Below are positions 6,221-36,407 of a stretch of 64,000 nucleotides of DNA, one piece after another. Numbering within the stretch: the first letter of the stretch is position 1; the number at the start of each line of letters is the position of its first letter. The DNA comes from Lewinellaceae bacterium. Its GTDB lineage: Bacteria; Bacteroidota; Bacteroidia; Chitinophagales; Saprospiraceae. The stretch lies in contig JAHELJ010000004.1 in the NCBI GenBank assembly GCA_024644235.1, positions 1 through 64,000 of the forward strand, given 5' to 3'. The notes under the pieces are model-generated. The model was not told the DNA's origin. It worked only from the letters and a program-made list of their open reading frames with translations, and did no database searches. A program made the position numbers and the translations under genes.

Positions 6221-8533
6221 TCATTTGTACTCCTCCGGCCAAACAGGAGCAACAATCTCGATAAACTCAGGATGGTCAAACAGCGACTCCAGATGTTTGT
6301 CGTAATTAAATTGATAATTTCCGGCATAAAGGCCCATTTCTTTGGCTTTGCGGAGGTAGATTATGGCGTTTTCCACATCGCCCATCTTGGCGTAAATGCA
6401 GCCGATATGATAGTAGGGGAAGGCCGCGTAGGAGGCAGCCAGGGTGAGATCTTCGGTGACCAGTGATTCCATCTCCCGGATAATTTGATGTACCGTGTTC
6501 AGATCGCCACTTTGGATGTTGCCTAGAGCGGTCCAGTAGAGGTATCTCTTATAAGGTGCCCAAGGACTGTAGGGGTCGGCGACATTACGCCATTTGATGT
6601 CCAGGGTAACTGGAGTTTTGTCCAGCACACGTAGGGCTTGAGAGAGGATTTCGCGCTGAATAGGGCCTTCAGGATATTGGTCCAGACTTTTCCTGGCAAC
6701 TTCAATGAGCCGGGCATTCATTTCCGGTGAAGAAAATACAGAACGATAGTCCCAGTCAAATCTACCAACCAATCTGGCGAATGTATCCTCAGGATCACTG
6801 GCCGCTGCAAAATCTTCTTCCAGAACTTGGTGATAGAGTTGTTCGTCTTTAGTCATGATGGCATAAAGGCTGGGGATGAATCTCCAGGGGTCACTCCATT
6901 GAATCAGGTCGACTAAATTGGCGAGTGGTTCTTTATCATTCGCGCCGTACTCCGGCAGAATGGTCCGGCTTATAATTTCATTCCTGATTCTGGGATGGGT
7001 TCCCTGAACATAGGGGACCTCTACCTCCTCAAGAGGTAGATCAGCATAAATCTGCATGGTAAGCGGATAATTGTTGAGCTCGTCAAAAGCAACGGCCGCT
7101 GCATCATGATTAAGATGAAAGTCCTTTGGGAAGCGCTTCCGGAGCTTGTCAGCTATTCTAAATGTTATCAAGGAATTGCCCTGATAGAGATTCTTTACAT
7201 AATCATACAGATCTTGTTCGTATTTAGTTAGATCGGCCAGGTGTCGATCCAGAAATCGAAAGTGATCCGGTTTTGAAGGATGAAGTAGCCAGCGGGAATG
7301 ATTAAGCCATTCGATCCTCGCCAGATAAAAATTTGAGTCCAAGGAAAGAATTTCTTTCAAATCGTCAGGACCAAATCCAGTTTCATGGCGATTCAGAAAC
7401 AAGCTGTATGCTTCGAGGTCGGGCAGATTGATCCTCCTACTGTCTACCATGTCCTTTGCCGCCCAATATCCCAGCACCTTTTCGGTGGCACCGGAAATAA
7501 TTTCTTCCTTGTCTGCCTGATTTCCCGATATATGTGGAAGCGCAAACTGTAACTTCCCAGTCACGGCATTTTGAATCTGAAGCGCGAGGGTCATTTCATC
7601 TTCATTCAGGAAATAACTCCCGGCAATGACCAAGTTCGCACCGGTCAACTCATTAAATGATGATCTGGAGGGATCTCCCGGGAGGATACCAAAGGCAGAG
7701 AGATTTGTCTCCACAGTGGCAGGAGAAACCACCTCGGCGTTTTCAATATTCATCAATGCCAGATTGATAAAATTGGAGGCGATTTTACCAAAGTTGTCCA
7801 GGGCGGGATCAGTGGTGAGATTTTCGAAGGGTACCACCGCAATCCGTTCTGATCGAAGTTCTTGGGCAATCGGATCAGCTTCTGAATCTGTGGTGAACCA
7901 ATTGTTGTACCCATATACACCAACAAGCACAAGAATAACAAGAGAAGCAACCACCGGGATGATTTTCACCAGGGTGCCTTGGCTCTTTTCCGGTTGTAGT
8001 TTGCCGGTCACCTCATCAGGTTTTGGGACAACAAGGCCGGGATTGGTGAGCGCAAAAACCTCCATCGGTTCTTCGACATTTTTGAATTCAAAGTTCCCCA
8101 GGGAGGTGAGTTGAAATTCTGACCGGTTTTTGATCTGATCGCGGATTGGTTTAGATAGAAGGATCGATCCGGGTACACCCAAGGATTCCACCCTGGAAGC
8201 AACGTTTACTCCGTCTCCAAAGACATTTCCCTCCTTGAATACCACATCCCCCAGATGCATCCCAATGCGGACAGGGATGTTTGGTTGAGCTAAGAAGGAT
8301 TTTTGAAGGGCCAATGCACATTCCACGCCATGTACCGAACTGTCGAAAGCAAGCAAGCATCCATCTCCAAAATACTGCACGATTTCACCCCGGTGCGCCT
8401 GGGTCTCCTGCTCCAAGACCTCTTTGAAACGGTTGAGAAAGAGTAAAGCTTCTTGCTCATCTTTTTGCATGAGAGCCGTATACCCGGCAATGTCAGCGAA
8501 AAGGATGGTAGCTAGTTTGCGTGTTTCGGACAT
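6221..8533 (-). CDS. Class III nucleotide cyclase with TM and TPR-like sensor region (paralogue 2)
   Basis: This 770-residue protein starts MSETRKLATILFADIAGYT. The cyclase domain (about 1-165) has metal Asp14 and Asp57, Asn110 and Arg114, with Gln53 and Asn103 at the base-selecting positions. A membrane helix at about 190-210 (IIPVVASLVILVLVGVYGY) is followed by a domain starting IAVVPFENLTTDPAL and a long helical TPR-like part. The distal 550 residues are strongly diverged from paralogue 1, while the cyclase domain is about 75 percent identical by eye. This suggests a shared catalytic output with different sensing. It is divergently transcribed from the ADP-ribosylglycohydrolase gene, with 159 bp between them. 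Confidence 0.87.
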   Translation of the reverse strand: MSETRKLATILFADIAGYTALMQKDEQEALLFLNRFKEVLEQETQAHRGEIVQYFGDGCLLAFDSSVHGVECALALQKSFLAQPNIPVRIGMHLGDVVFKEGNVFGDGVNVASRVESLGVPGSILLSKPIRDQIKNRSEFQLTSLGNFEFKNVEEPMEVFALTNPGLVVPKPDEVTGKLQPEKSQGTLVKIIPVVASLVILVLVGVYGYNNWFTTDSEADPIAQELRSERIAVVPFENLTTDPALDNFGKIASNFINLALMNIENAEVVSPATVETNLSAFGILPGDPSRSSFNELTGANLVIAGSYFLNEDEMTLALQIQNAVTGKLQFALPHISGNQADKEEIISGATEKVLGYWAAKDMVDSRRINLPDLEAYSLFLNRHETGFGPDDLKEILSLDSNFYLARIEWLNHSRWLLHPSKPDHFRFLDRHLADLTKYEQDLYDYVKNLYQGNSLITFRIADKLRKRFPKDFHLNHDAAAVAFDELNNYPLTMQIYADLPLEEVEVPYVQGTHPRIRNEIISRTILPEYGANDKEPLANLVDLIQWSDPWRFIPSLYAIMTKDEQLYHQVLEEDFAAASDPEDTFARLVGRFDWDYRSVFSSPEMNARLIEVARKSLDQYPEGPIQREILSQALRVLDKTPVTLDIKWRNVADPYSPWAPYKRYLYWTALGNIQSGDLNTVHQIIREMESLVTEDLTLAASYAAFPYYHIGCIYAKMGDVENAIIYLRKAKEMGLYAGNYQFNYDKHLESLFDHPEFIEIVAPVWPEEYK

Positions 8534-32176: not shown

Positions 32177-32395
32177 TCAGCTATTTTGTTTGAAGCAAGT
32201 CCTGCCGGAAACACATGTGTCCGGTGAAACCAGCCCATCGTCTGGTCCTGTTCCTCCCACTGACTTAACGCACCAGCAGATTGTGTTTGCTTCGTCCAAC
32301 AGGAACCAGGGGTTTTCTCCACCTTCGGTCAGTCCGTAAGGACTTCTTGCTTTTAGATAGCGACAATATTTATTTCTGATTGGCCTGATATCCAT
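32177..32395 (-). CDS. Small Cys-rich protein coupled to the molybdenum hydroxylase operon
   Basis: The 72-residue frame starts 2 bases after the stop codon of the FAD-subunit gene (TAG TA ATG), so it is very likely translated. It has five Cys (11, 40, 42, 61, 67) in a compact, aromatic and Gly-rich sequence (RSPYGLTEGGENPWFLLD, TICWCVKSVGG, CVSGRTCF). No signal peptide is evident. The Cys pattern suggests binding of Zn or an Fe-S cluster, or a chaperone/maturation role for the oxidoreductase. I do not recognise a named family. Overlapping frames in this stretch lack protein character. The 160 bases between its stop and the cupin gene show nothing else. Confidence 0.65.
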   Translation of the reverse strand: MDIRPIRNKYCRYLKARSPYGLTEGGENPWFLLDEANTICWCVKSVGGTGPDDGLVSPDTCVSGRTCFKQNS

Positions 32396-32397
32396 TA

Positions 32398-33414
32398 CTA
32401 CGCAATTTCTAAGAGGGCTTGGCTGATGGTAGTTAGAAACAATGGGACCTTATAGCCATTCATTGTAAGTGGTCTGGCCGATGCCATGGCCGTTTCACCG
32501 GCGAGTTTTGCGCTTTCTTTATTGATGACCTGATTAATCAACGCTTCTTCTGCTCGGTAAGCCCGTACGGGGGTAGGAGCCGCTGCACCCAATGCTATGG
32601 TAATCTTTTCACACTTATTGCCATTCATTTTGGCCACGACAGCTACATCCGCTAACGACCAATCATATGACTCTCTTGCTACTTGCTTCACATAATGACT
32701 TCTGGTTCCTGAAGATGGTGTTGGAACCTTGATTTCGGTGATCAAGTCTCCGGGACTGAGGATGTTCTCTCTCCAGATGTCCTGGCTTGGTGATACAAAG
32801 AAGTCCTCTATCGGAACCTCGTGACTTTCGCCCTTAGCATCGAGATAAACTATAGAAGCCTCGTACGCCAGAAGAGCAGTAGCGACTGATGAGGCATGGA
32901 GACTTACGCAGGATCCGTTATCCAAAATGGCATGATTTTCATTCTGTCCCGTTTGTTGGCTTCGGGCATAGCAACGGTCGCCTCCTTTCCGCATACAAGG
33001 ATGATCAGCTGAGCGAAAATACCAACATCTGGTTCGCTGGGCGAGATTCCCGGCGAGGGTAGACATATTTCTTAGCTGCGGAGTGGCTGCATGAGCCACA
33101 GCCTGCTGGAGTGCAGTATAATGCTCGCTGACTTCCGGGCTCTGCTCTATCTCTGTCAAGGTTACATTTGCACCTATCGAAAGTCCACTGTCGGGATCAA
33201 AGCTCATTTTGTCAAGGCCCTTGATATTTCGGACATTGACAATCATCTGGGGTGCAATCAAGCCTTCTTTGACCATATCCCAAACGTCGATCCCACCCGA
33301 TTTATAAATTGAAGCCTTTCCGGTAGGTGTGTAGATTTCCTCCGAAACTGTAGAATTTGCCTGTTCTATGGCATCCTCCACGGATTTGGCTTCATACCAA
33401 CTAAATTTATTCAT
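32398..33414 (-). CDS. FAD-binding subunit of a PaoABC-like molybdenum hydroxylase
   Basis: The 338-residue protein has the CO-dehydrogenase flavoprotein fold: FSWYEAKSVEDAIEQA, MIVNVRNIKGLDKM, LSIGANVTLTEIEQ, TPQLRNMSTLAGNL, and the C-terminal SLADVAVVAKM region. An inserted segment has Cys130, Cys140, Cys148 (RTRCWYFRSADHPCMRKGG) and Cys169. This matches the extra [4Fe-4S] loop of E. coli PaoB (YagS) and 4-hydroxybenzoyl-CoA reductase beta. It transfers electrons between the 2Fe-2S subunit and the acceptor. The gene lies 10 bp after the large subunit gene. Confidence 0.92.
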   Translation of the reverse strand: MNKFSWYEAKSVEDAIEQANSTVSEEIYTPTGKASIYKSGGIDVWDMVKEGLIAPQMIVNVRNIKGLDKMSFDPDSGLSIGANVTLTEIEQSPEVSEHYTALQQAVAHAATPQLRNMSTLAGNLAQRTRCWYFRSADHPCMRKGGDRCYARSQQTGQNENHAILDNGSCVSLHASSVATALLAYEASIVYLDAKGESHEVPIEDFFVSPSQDIWRENILSPGDLITEIKVPTPSSGTRSHYVKQVARESYDWSLADVAVVAKMNGNKCEKITIALGAAAPTPVRAYRAEEALINQVINKESAKLAGETAMASARPLTMNGYKVPLFLTTISQALLEIA

Positions 33415-33424
33415 GATGGCGACT

Positions 33425-35767
33425 TTATTCGTAAACTTTATTTAATGCTTTTAAGATTCGAGCGGGTGTTATCGGTATCTCATAGATTCGTACCCCGATG
33501 GCATTGTATACTGCATTGGCAATCGCGACAGCAGTCGCGATGTTTGCCGGTTCACCGATACCGTAGGCATCCGTAGACGAGCTAGCAGTGTATTCTTCCA
33601 CGATTTCTATTTCGATTTCTGGGATCTCCATAGAATACGGAACCTTGTACTGATGGGCGTTGGCATTCATGAAATGACCTGTGCTGGAATCCATTACCCG
33701 GTTTTCGTATAAGGCGTATGAAACACCCTGTATCACACCACCATTGATTTGGCTCTCCAACTGGCCGATATTCAGCGGCCTGCCGCAGCTATGGGCTGCA
33801 ACAATTCGATCCACTTTTACAAAACCGGTATCTGTATTTACGGATACCTCCGCAAATTGTACCGATCCGAGGTCTCCATATGCCAATCCCCAAGGTTGTT
33901 GAAAACCTCCGTAATCATTGGTGCGGCTGGCGGTAGCGGTGATCTGCCCAGTGCGCATGCCCCTAAGTGCCTCCTTGAATGCAATTTTCTTCGATGCATC
34001 TTCGATGTGCAGAATTTGCCCATCTCTAGCAACTAGTTTACCTGATTCGGTTTCCCATTTGGCAGCAAGTTGCTCAAACAATTTCATCTTGACTTCATAA
34101 GCAGCATTCCTTGCCGGAGGAGTTATCGAACCCGTAACGACACTTCCGCCACTACCCGGCCCATCAGGAAACAACGTGTCTCCAATACGGACTGTGATGT
34201 CGGTTGTTTTGAGGCCGAGTTCTTCCGCAACTACCTGTGCCAACACGGTCTTGGTGCCGGTCCCTATATCCTGTACGCTGGATCGAATCTCAACGGAGCC
34301 GTCGTTGAGGACTCTCACTTCGACGCTAGAATTCAGGGTGACAAATCTTGGCCAACAAGATTGGGCCATGCCCATTCCTTTCTTGATAGTACCTTGGCTG
34401 GATCCGGCTTTCTTCCGTTGTGACCAACCAAATCGCTCTGCTCCTCTCATCCGTTCTACTCGTCTCACTTCACTCTTGTCAATTTTGTCTCGAAGCGCTA
34501 GCGGATCCATGCTCAGCTTTTCAGCTAGCTCGTCGATCGCCTGCTCTACCCCAAACGCACCTTGCACATTACCAGGTGCCCTCCAAGCTGCACCCGGACC
34601 AGCATGGGTGAGTACATCATATTGCTCGGTCCGGAAGTTTGGACATTCGTAAAGCACTTGTGCCACCCGACCCACTCCTGCTCCCAGACCGACTCCTGCC
34701 GTTCCGTAAGATTTCTGATCAATGGCTGTGAGGGTACCGTCATTCCTGGCTCCAATTTTCAAGGTTTGGATGGAGTTTGGTCGGTTTCCTTCGGCAAGAT
34801 GTTCTTCTTTTCGATCTATCATCAACCAGACCGGTCGTCCTGTCTTCTTGGATAATGTAGCTGCCATTGGCCCAAAGCTCCCAGCACTGTGTTTGGCTCC
34901 AAATCCTCCGCCCATGAAATCACAGATCACCCGCACCTTGCTCTTGGGAAGGTCGAAGTAATCGGCCAGTTCGTTGCGCACATTAGCTGTATTTTGGGTA
35001 GAAGCATACACCAGCATTTCATCAGACGTCCAATCGATTACCACGCCATGCGTCTCCAAGGGCATGTGCGTGTGAACCTGAGTACGGTATGTTTGTTCAA
35101 CGATCACATCGGCCTCTGCAAAGCCTTGCTCGACATCCCCTCTGGGGCCACCATAAAAGCTGCTGGTGCTGGGACCCCTAAGATTTCCTTCTCCTTTATC
35201 ACCCTCATGAACGACTCCCACATCTCCGCCGTCTACCTGAGCACCCATAGGGGCATCAAATACTAGTGGAGCATCCGGTTGCATGGCATCTTCCAGATCA
35301 ATTACAAACGACTTCTCATCGTAATTAACCTCGATCAGGGAAACTGCTTCTTTGGCAATATCCAGCGTATCAGCTGCTACTCCAGCCAGGGGTTGACCCA
35401 CATATTTTACTCCGGGAAAGGTCTCAGATGCCTCGCCCTCTTCAGAAGTGTTCCTGACAATATGAACCGCATGGACACCCGGCAAATTTTCTGCCTTAGA
35501 AGTATCGATCGAACGGATGGTGGCGTGAGGTACATTCGCTCTCAGGAACTTGGCATAGAGCATACCTGGCAATTGCATATCGCTGGTATACTTTGCTTGC
35601 CCGGTAACCTTAGCCCTGGCATCAATCCGATTGATCCTTTTGCCAACTTCCTTCAGTTCTTCATTAATCGGCCAGGCAGGCGGCTCCGTGTTGTCAATCT
35701 CCCTTTCTATTTCACCAAGGTTATGACCGGGTATTCCTAATGGAAATATTTCTTTTCGTTTTTCCAT
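33425..35767 (-). CDS. Molybdopterin-binding large subunit of a PaoABC-like aldehyde/xanthine-type oxidoreductase
   Basis: The 780-residue protein has the N-terminal hammerhead domain (VGKRINRIDARAKVTGQAKYT) and the molybdenum cofactor domain with GGGFGAKH, GPGAAWRAPGNVQGAFGVEQA and QDIGTGTKTVLAQVVAEELG. The catalytic Glu739 is in YGIGEPANIATAVA. Family members hydroxylate aldehydes or heterocycles, taking oxygen from water. The 7-subclass (PaoC/YagR-like) is suggested by the matching small subunits. It starts 1 base after the stop codon of the 2Fe-2S gene. Substrate cannot be read from the sequence. Confidence 0.93.
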   Translation of the reverse strand: MEKRKEIFPLGIPGHNLGEIEREIDNTEPPAWPINEELKEVGKRINRIDARAKVTGQAKYTSDMQLPGMLYAKFLRANVPHATIRSIDTSKAENLPGVHAVHIVRNTSEEGEASETFPGVKYVGQPLAGVAADTLDIAKEAVSLIEVNYDEKSFVIDLEDAMQPDAPLVFDAPMGAQVDGGDVGVVHEGDKGEGNLRGPSTSSFYGGPRGDVEQGFAEADVIVEQTYRTQVHTHMPLETHGVVIDWTSDEMLVYASTQNTANVRNELADYFDLPKSKVRVICDFMGGGFGAKHSAGSFGPMAATLSKKTGRPVWLMIDRKEEHLAEGNRPNSIQTLKIGARNDGTLTAIDQKSYGTAGVGLGAGVGRVAQVLYECPNFRTEQYDVLTHAGPGAAWRAPGNVQGAFGVEQAIDELAEKLSMDPLALRDKIDKSEVRRVERMRGAERFGWSQRKKAGSSQGTIKKGMGMAQSCWPRFVTLNSSVEVRVLNDGSVEIRSSVQDIGTGTKTVLAQVVAEELGLKTTDITVRIGDTLFPDGPGSGGSVVTGSITPPARNAAYEVKMKLFEQLAAKWETESGKLVARDGQILHIEDASKKIAFKEALRGMRTGQITATASRTNDYGGFQQPWGLAYGDLGSVQFAEVSVNTDTGFVKVDRIVAAHSCGRPLNIGQLESQINGGVIQGVSYALYENRVMDSSTGHFMNANAHQYKVPYSMEIPEIEIEIVEEYTASSSTDAYGIGEPANIATAVAIANAVYNAIGVRIYEIPITPARILKALNKVYE

Positions 35768-35768
35768 C

Positions 35769-36407
35769 TTATTTCATTTTTTCCGCTGCACTCAGCGTTG
35801 CCTTAAAAACATGGGGATAGGTGCCGCAACGACACAGGTTGCCTCGGGTGGCTGCCTTAACATCTTCCAGACTTGGATTCTCTTCATTTTCCAGGAGATG
35901 CACGCAAGACATCACCATCCCTGGCGTGCAATATCCGCATTGGGAAGCATCATGCTCGATAAAAGCTTCTTGTACCGGATGCAGCTCACCGTTTCGGGCA
36001 ATCCCCTCAATAGTTATCACTTCACGATCGCCGACGTCAAGTGCCATCGTTATACAGGCATTTACCGGTTTGCCGTCGATAAATACAGTACAGGCAGAAC
36101 ATGAGCCGCGGTCACAGACTACCTTGGTTCCTGTGAGGCTGAGATGGTCTCGCAAAGCGGTTGCTAAAGTGGTCCTGGGCTCCACAGTAAGAGATTGCAT
36201 ACGACCATTGACCTTCATCTCAATGCCAATGCTGCCTGGTCCGAAGGATGTGCCTTTTGCCGGTTGAGTATGAGCCTCAAAAGCTTGCACGCCAGTGGTA
36301 AACACCACGGTGCCAGCAGTGGTCAAACCAGCTCCACGTAGAAATCCTCTCCTGCTCAGACCTTTTGAATGACCTTCAGCATGGGATTTCTTGCTATTTT
36401 TTTTCAT
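35769..36407 (-). CDS. Tat-exported 2Fe-2S subunit of the PaoABC-like oxidoreductase
   Basis: The 212-residue protein has a twin-arginine signal (SRRGFLRGAG, residues 18-27), so the complex is likely exported folded, as for E. coli PaoABC. The plant-type 2Fe-2S cluster is bound by Cys98, Cys103, Cys106 and Cys118; the second cluster by Cys157, Cys160, Cys192 and Cys194 (CGYC...CRC). It is the first gene of the operon 2Fe-2S, Mo, FAD, Cys-rich protein. Confidence 0.94.
   Translation of the reverse strand: MKKNSKKSHAEGHSKGLSRRGFLRGAGLTTAGTVVFTTGVQAFEAHTQPAKGTSFGPGSIGIEMKVNGRMQSLTVEPRTTLATALRDHLSLTGTKVVCDRGSCSACTVFIDGKPVNACITMALDVGDREVITIEGIARNGELHPVQEAFIEHDASQCGYCTPGMVMSCVHLLENEENPSLEDVKAATRGNLCRCGTYPHVFKATLSAAEKMK

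Follow-up and report, generated by a model that had tools for sequence, protein, structure and literature searches.

A stretch of 64,000 nucleotides from a Lewinellaceae bacterium (hereafter the window) carries an open reading frame of only 72 codons directly behind the three genes of a PaoABC-like molybdenum enzyme, raising the question of whether so small a frame is a gene at all and, if so, what its product contributes to the enzyme. The genes concerned are as follows.

32016-31525, minus strand: cupin, the next same-strand gene downstream, 160 bp from the small gene
32177-32395, minus strand: small four-/five-Cys gene, 72 aa, ATG start, no named family
32398-33414, minus strand: PaoB-like FAD subunit (FAD_binding_5 and CO_deh_flav_C; Pfam/NCBIfam)
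33425-35767, minus strand: PaoC-like molybdenum subunit (Pfam/NCBIfam; NF041671, 409 bits)
35769-36407, minus strand: PaoA-like 2x[2Fe-2S] subunit with Tat signal SRRGFLRG and first cluster motif CDRGSCSAC

The 72-codon frame is a real gene under purifying selection. Fifteen distinct Bacteroidota homologues, the window's included, align end to end with 16 invariant columns, and the 14 further full-length sequences thus support the small ORF as coding. Four Cys (C11, C42, C61, and C67 in the window), one Trp, and the motifs EGG, GPD, and R.C are invariant in all 15, the Cys being spaced by about 30, 18, and 5–6 residues. The sole pair with measurable dS (L055/L014; NG86) gave dN 0.135 and dS 0.776, a ratio of 0.17; dS was saturated in the remaining nine pairs computed, with dN between 0.12 and 0.39. 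An earlier sequence-only reading had called the product a five-Cys protein, which is true of the window (positions 11, 40, 42, 61, and 67), but the conserved pattern comprises four: C40 is present in 10 of the 15 homologues, all within one subclade; the remaining five have Tyr there, two of them with a fifth Cys at another place.

The small protein had no accepted match in Pfam, NCBIfam, or PHROGs. A CBM_1 match (Pfam; 15.1 bits against a gathering cut-off of 20.6, E 0.022) spanned 14 residues in one of 15 members and was rejected as chance, as was a bacteriocin model matched by a single member at E 0.25. Profile searches of PDB sequences reached E 0.2 at best, or 0.65 with the final alignment, with no solved chain resembling the small protein, and AlphaFold models were poor (mean pLDDT 42.8 with 12 sequences and 52.9 with 15). 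The proteins are hydrophilic (GRAVY −0.17 to −0.85); no signal peptide is evident, nor was a hydrophobic N-terminus seen by eye. Among open-licence papers we found none on such a gene, which is not proof of its absence from print. Gene callers may skip genes of such sizes.

The three upstream genes encode a Tat-signal [2Fe-2S] subunit, a molybdenum subunit, and an FAD subunit together, as assessed by Pfam, NCBIfam, and the Tat motif. The FAD subunit has the extra Cys loop of PaoB: its C130, C140, C148, and C169 align with four Cys of Escherichia coli PaoB, which we take to hold a [4Fe-4S] cluster. The operon is therefore PaoABC-like, as had been proposed from the sequence, although its gene order differs (A-C-B-small in the window and A-B-C-D in E. 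coli). Identities to E. coli PaoA, PaoC, and PaoB are 39%, 33%, and 32%, respectively, and E. coli PaoA likewise carries a Tat signal. The best solved-structure match of the FAD subunit is the medium subunit of an aldehyde oxidase (5y6q_B, E 1.9e-52), with PaoB (5g5g_B) also among its PDB relatives. The molybdenum subunit failed the PaoC equivalog test (NF041671, 409 bits vs a cut-off of 1180), which places it in a different subfamily. The E. coli pao operon has no small gene, and the window operon has no paoD. No cupin-like ORF was seen adjoining the small gene in the ORF lists of five other loci (L007, L008, L010, L080, and L081).

Counting strong matches only, the small gene was found in 5 of 60 relatives, the window's own genome included, and in 10 of 150 genomes of the family; four more loci came from a single-sequence scan of genome contigs. 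Across 395 genomes of the phylum it occurred in two, the window's genome (G000) and G398, the latter being the only carrier among 196 genomes of its order. Two other classes of the phylum yielded none in 129 and 127 genomes, sets that held no known carrier as positive control. These whole-genome searches covered Bacteroidota; other phyla were reached through plasmids, viral contigs, and one single-sequence contig scan, which detects close relatives only. Searched with the protein of the window, plasmids gave no match up to E 1, and viral contigs gave no relative. A second-subclade protein retrieved from plasmids only partial Rhodococcus matches (E 6–7), which were rejected. Several weak matches were set aside as chance: L017, L019, and L020 (16.5–20.2 bits) and L098, all without the four-Cys pattern; L002 in the window's own genome (16 bits, with an internal stop); and L099, with internal stops. 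By genome set, the matches set aside include those in G705 and G251 of the family set and two in the phylum set besides G000 and G398.

The sequence-only reading had expected homologues with a conserved Cys pattern beside molybdenum hydroxylase genes, and indeed all 15 aligned homologues lie downstream of a PaoB-like gene. We examined the converse by searching with the FAD subunit. Among the 395 phylum genomes, 31 had a match, at 44 places of which 30 were examined, the 14 left outside the count all having at most 36% identity; 14 of the 150 family genomes had a match, at 16 places, all examined; and 3 of 120 genomes of G398's family had one at E up to 1e-50. Together these searches gave 46 distinct FAD loci, downstream of which the small gene was sought for up to 1.5 kb with a nine-member profile (A1). 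It was present at all 12 loci with at least 44% identity to the FAD query and at none of the 34 below 44% (highest 37%), among which one (L024) was covered for 357 bp downstream only and another (L062) is represented by a fragment of its FAD protein. Loci L007–L010 came from small-gene searches and therefore provide no evidence on linkage; the small-gene sequences of L007 and L008 are those of L051 and L052.

By genome, the correspondence is equally close. In the family set, the small gene occurs in ten genomes and the FAD clade in nine by whole-gene match, while the tenth carrier (G726) has an FAD fragment of 52% identity at a contig edge, directly before the small gene. In the phylum set, both occur in G000 and G398 only, and no carrier lacking the enzyme was seen among strong small-gene matches. 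An FAD tree of 47 rows, which omitted L062, the L009 fragment, and the duplicates L007/L008 and included E. coli PaoB, set the 13 carriers apart from all other rows by a branch supported at 100/96, and the small-gene label required one change, compared to about 11.5 in shuffles. Because near relatives cluster anyway, this tree fits a single origin with stable retention and should not be counted as independent statistical evidence on function.

The small gene is thus the fourth operon gene of a distinct PaoABC-like subfamily, found only there in the genomes searched, and its product is probably a dedicated partner of that enzyme. The tie to exported molybdenum enzymes suggested earlier holds for one FAD-subunit clade and is not general. 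The gene is absent both from E. coli paoABCD and from three Tat-PaoABC-like operons in a different class of the phylum (f37; G319, G381, and G601), which share the window's Tat-bearing PaoA homologue, PaoC homologue, and A-C-B order but lack the small gene (in G381, within 357 bp downstream). A very short ORF with a low-confidence fold might be spurious, or an unrelated gene hitch-hiking beside the operon by chance, but full-length conservation and exclusive linkage make this highly improbable, and the conservation has already refuted the spurious-ORF version.

Two bases separate the TAG of the FAD-subunit ORF (33414-32398, minus strand) from the ATG of the small gene, just as first read from the sequence. 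The coupling proposed on this basis proved common but not universal: the gap is 1–3 bp in nine of the ten C40-subclade members and 11 bp in the tenth, whereas the five homologues without C40 have gaps of 8, 106, 142, 359 (with an N run inside), and 772 bp. The 772-bp gap (G001) contains a low-complexity repeat (L012, 9578-9886) that translates as ILLYCCIA repeats. A run of N in L013 (G015, around 7780-8000) is flanked on both sides by the small-gene start and is probably an assembly artefact.

What the product does we infer from these patterns, and our preferred reading is a tentative one, short of an even chance: a fourth subunit that binds metal and is exported as part of the PaoABC-like complex. 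Through translational coupling, the small protein would be made beside the nascent FAD subunit; its four invariant Cys would bind metal, either Zn or an Fe-S cluster; and, while still in the cytoplasm, it would attach to the apo-enzyme on its FAD/Fe-S side. Lacking an evident export signal itself, the small protein would leave on the Tat signal that the PaoA-like subunit bears, much as an excerpt of PMC4273604 describes for E. coli, where PaoA alone carries the signal and PaoB and PaoC are exported along with it. Once exported, the small protein would pass electrons to an acceptor or stabilise the docking face. The four invariant Cys are only suggestive of metal binding, and their spacing fits no metal or Fe-S motif known to us, which counts against the subunit reading. 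The poor structure models and the five gaps of 8–772 bp outside the C40 subclade also count against it, and linkage to a clade would, taken alone, fit an assembly factor or a regulator just as well.

The same Cys might instead form two disulfides in a small periplasmic protein that is exported with the complex and has a structural or docking role without metal. Their even number and unusual spacing are compatible with this, as is a partner complex predicted from its Tat signal to be periplasmic. Against it stand the lack of a signal on the small protein itself and the fifth Cys, which is at C40 in 10 of 15 homologues and elsewhere in two more, and we regard the disulfide reading as quite unlikely.

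A stronger competitor, almost as probable as the subunit reading itself, is a cytoplasmic metal- or cluster-binding assembly chaperone that stays outside the mature enzyme and helps to load FAD, [4Fe-4S], or [2Fe-2S], or delays export. Such a protein would take PaoD's operon position: the small gene stands at the operon end, as paoD does in E. coli, and PaoD, described in an excerpt of PMC3909100 as a chaperone needed for maturation and not an enzyme subunit, provides a precedent. The absence of an evident signal peptide also agrees with a cytoplasmic factor, as does the absence of an XdhC gene beside the operon in each of ten carrier genomes (contig positions compared). All ten nevertheless have an XdhC gene elsewhere, so that the role is not vacant, and this weakens the idea that the small protein replaces a missing PaoD. 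Two further points disfavour the chaperone: the E. coli operon encodes no such protein, yet its PaoB, which shares the four Cys, matures all the same, and the small protein has no sequence relation to known chaperone families, with no XdhC domain among the Pfam matches of the small proteins.

The window genome's only XdhC match (L083; G000:C240:162000-180000) is accompanied by ORFs for Cox-like FAD, [2Fe-2S], and molybdenum subunits, and by further ORFs that appear MoxR-like and CoxE-like by eye; it is not beside the PaoABC-like operon. In contrast to the carriers, one f37 operon (L084, G319) has an XdhC gene adjoining the FAD gene in convergent orientation.

Carriers also differ in the enzyme itself. 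In all 11 carriers examined (the window, L007, L008, L010–L014, and L080–L082), the PaoA-like subunit has C-x4-C-[S/C]-A-C in place of C-x4-C-G-x-C as its first [2Fe-2S] motif, the Gly being replaced by Ser in ten and by Cys in one. E. coli PaoA and all three f37 operons keep the Gly that is Ser in the window, and the replacement may change the potential of the cluster. Two things place the subunit reading slightly ahead of the assembly factor: the tie between the gene and the FAD subunit, and the change, within the same clade, of a redox motif in the enzyme itself. A more specific version, which we consider unlikely, is a new small metal- or cluster-binding subunit that links an exported xanthine-oxidase-family enzyme to a periplasmic acceptor, with the altered [2Fe-2S] motif belonging to the same rewired electron path. 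For PaoABC, the terminal electron acceptor was unidentified as of 2014, according to an excerpt of PMC3958847.

In that 2014 text, PaoABC-type enzymes were described as three-subunit, and here a fourth gene, from a family absent from Pfam and NCBIfam, is tied to one whole subfamily. The small gene thereby offers a concrete candidate for a step, in electron transfer or in assembly, that has been missing, and its product probably represents a fourth component, so far undescribed, of one branch of the exported, aldehyde-oxidase-like molybdenum enzymes of Bacteroidota. The molybdenum subunit of this branch additionally carries an N-terminal extension, which is similar in all 11 carriers examined and is lacking in E. 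coli PaoC.
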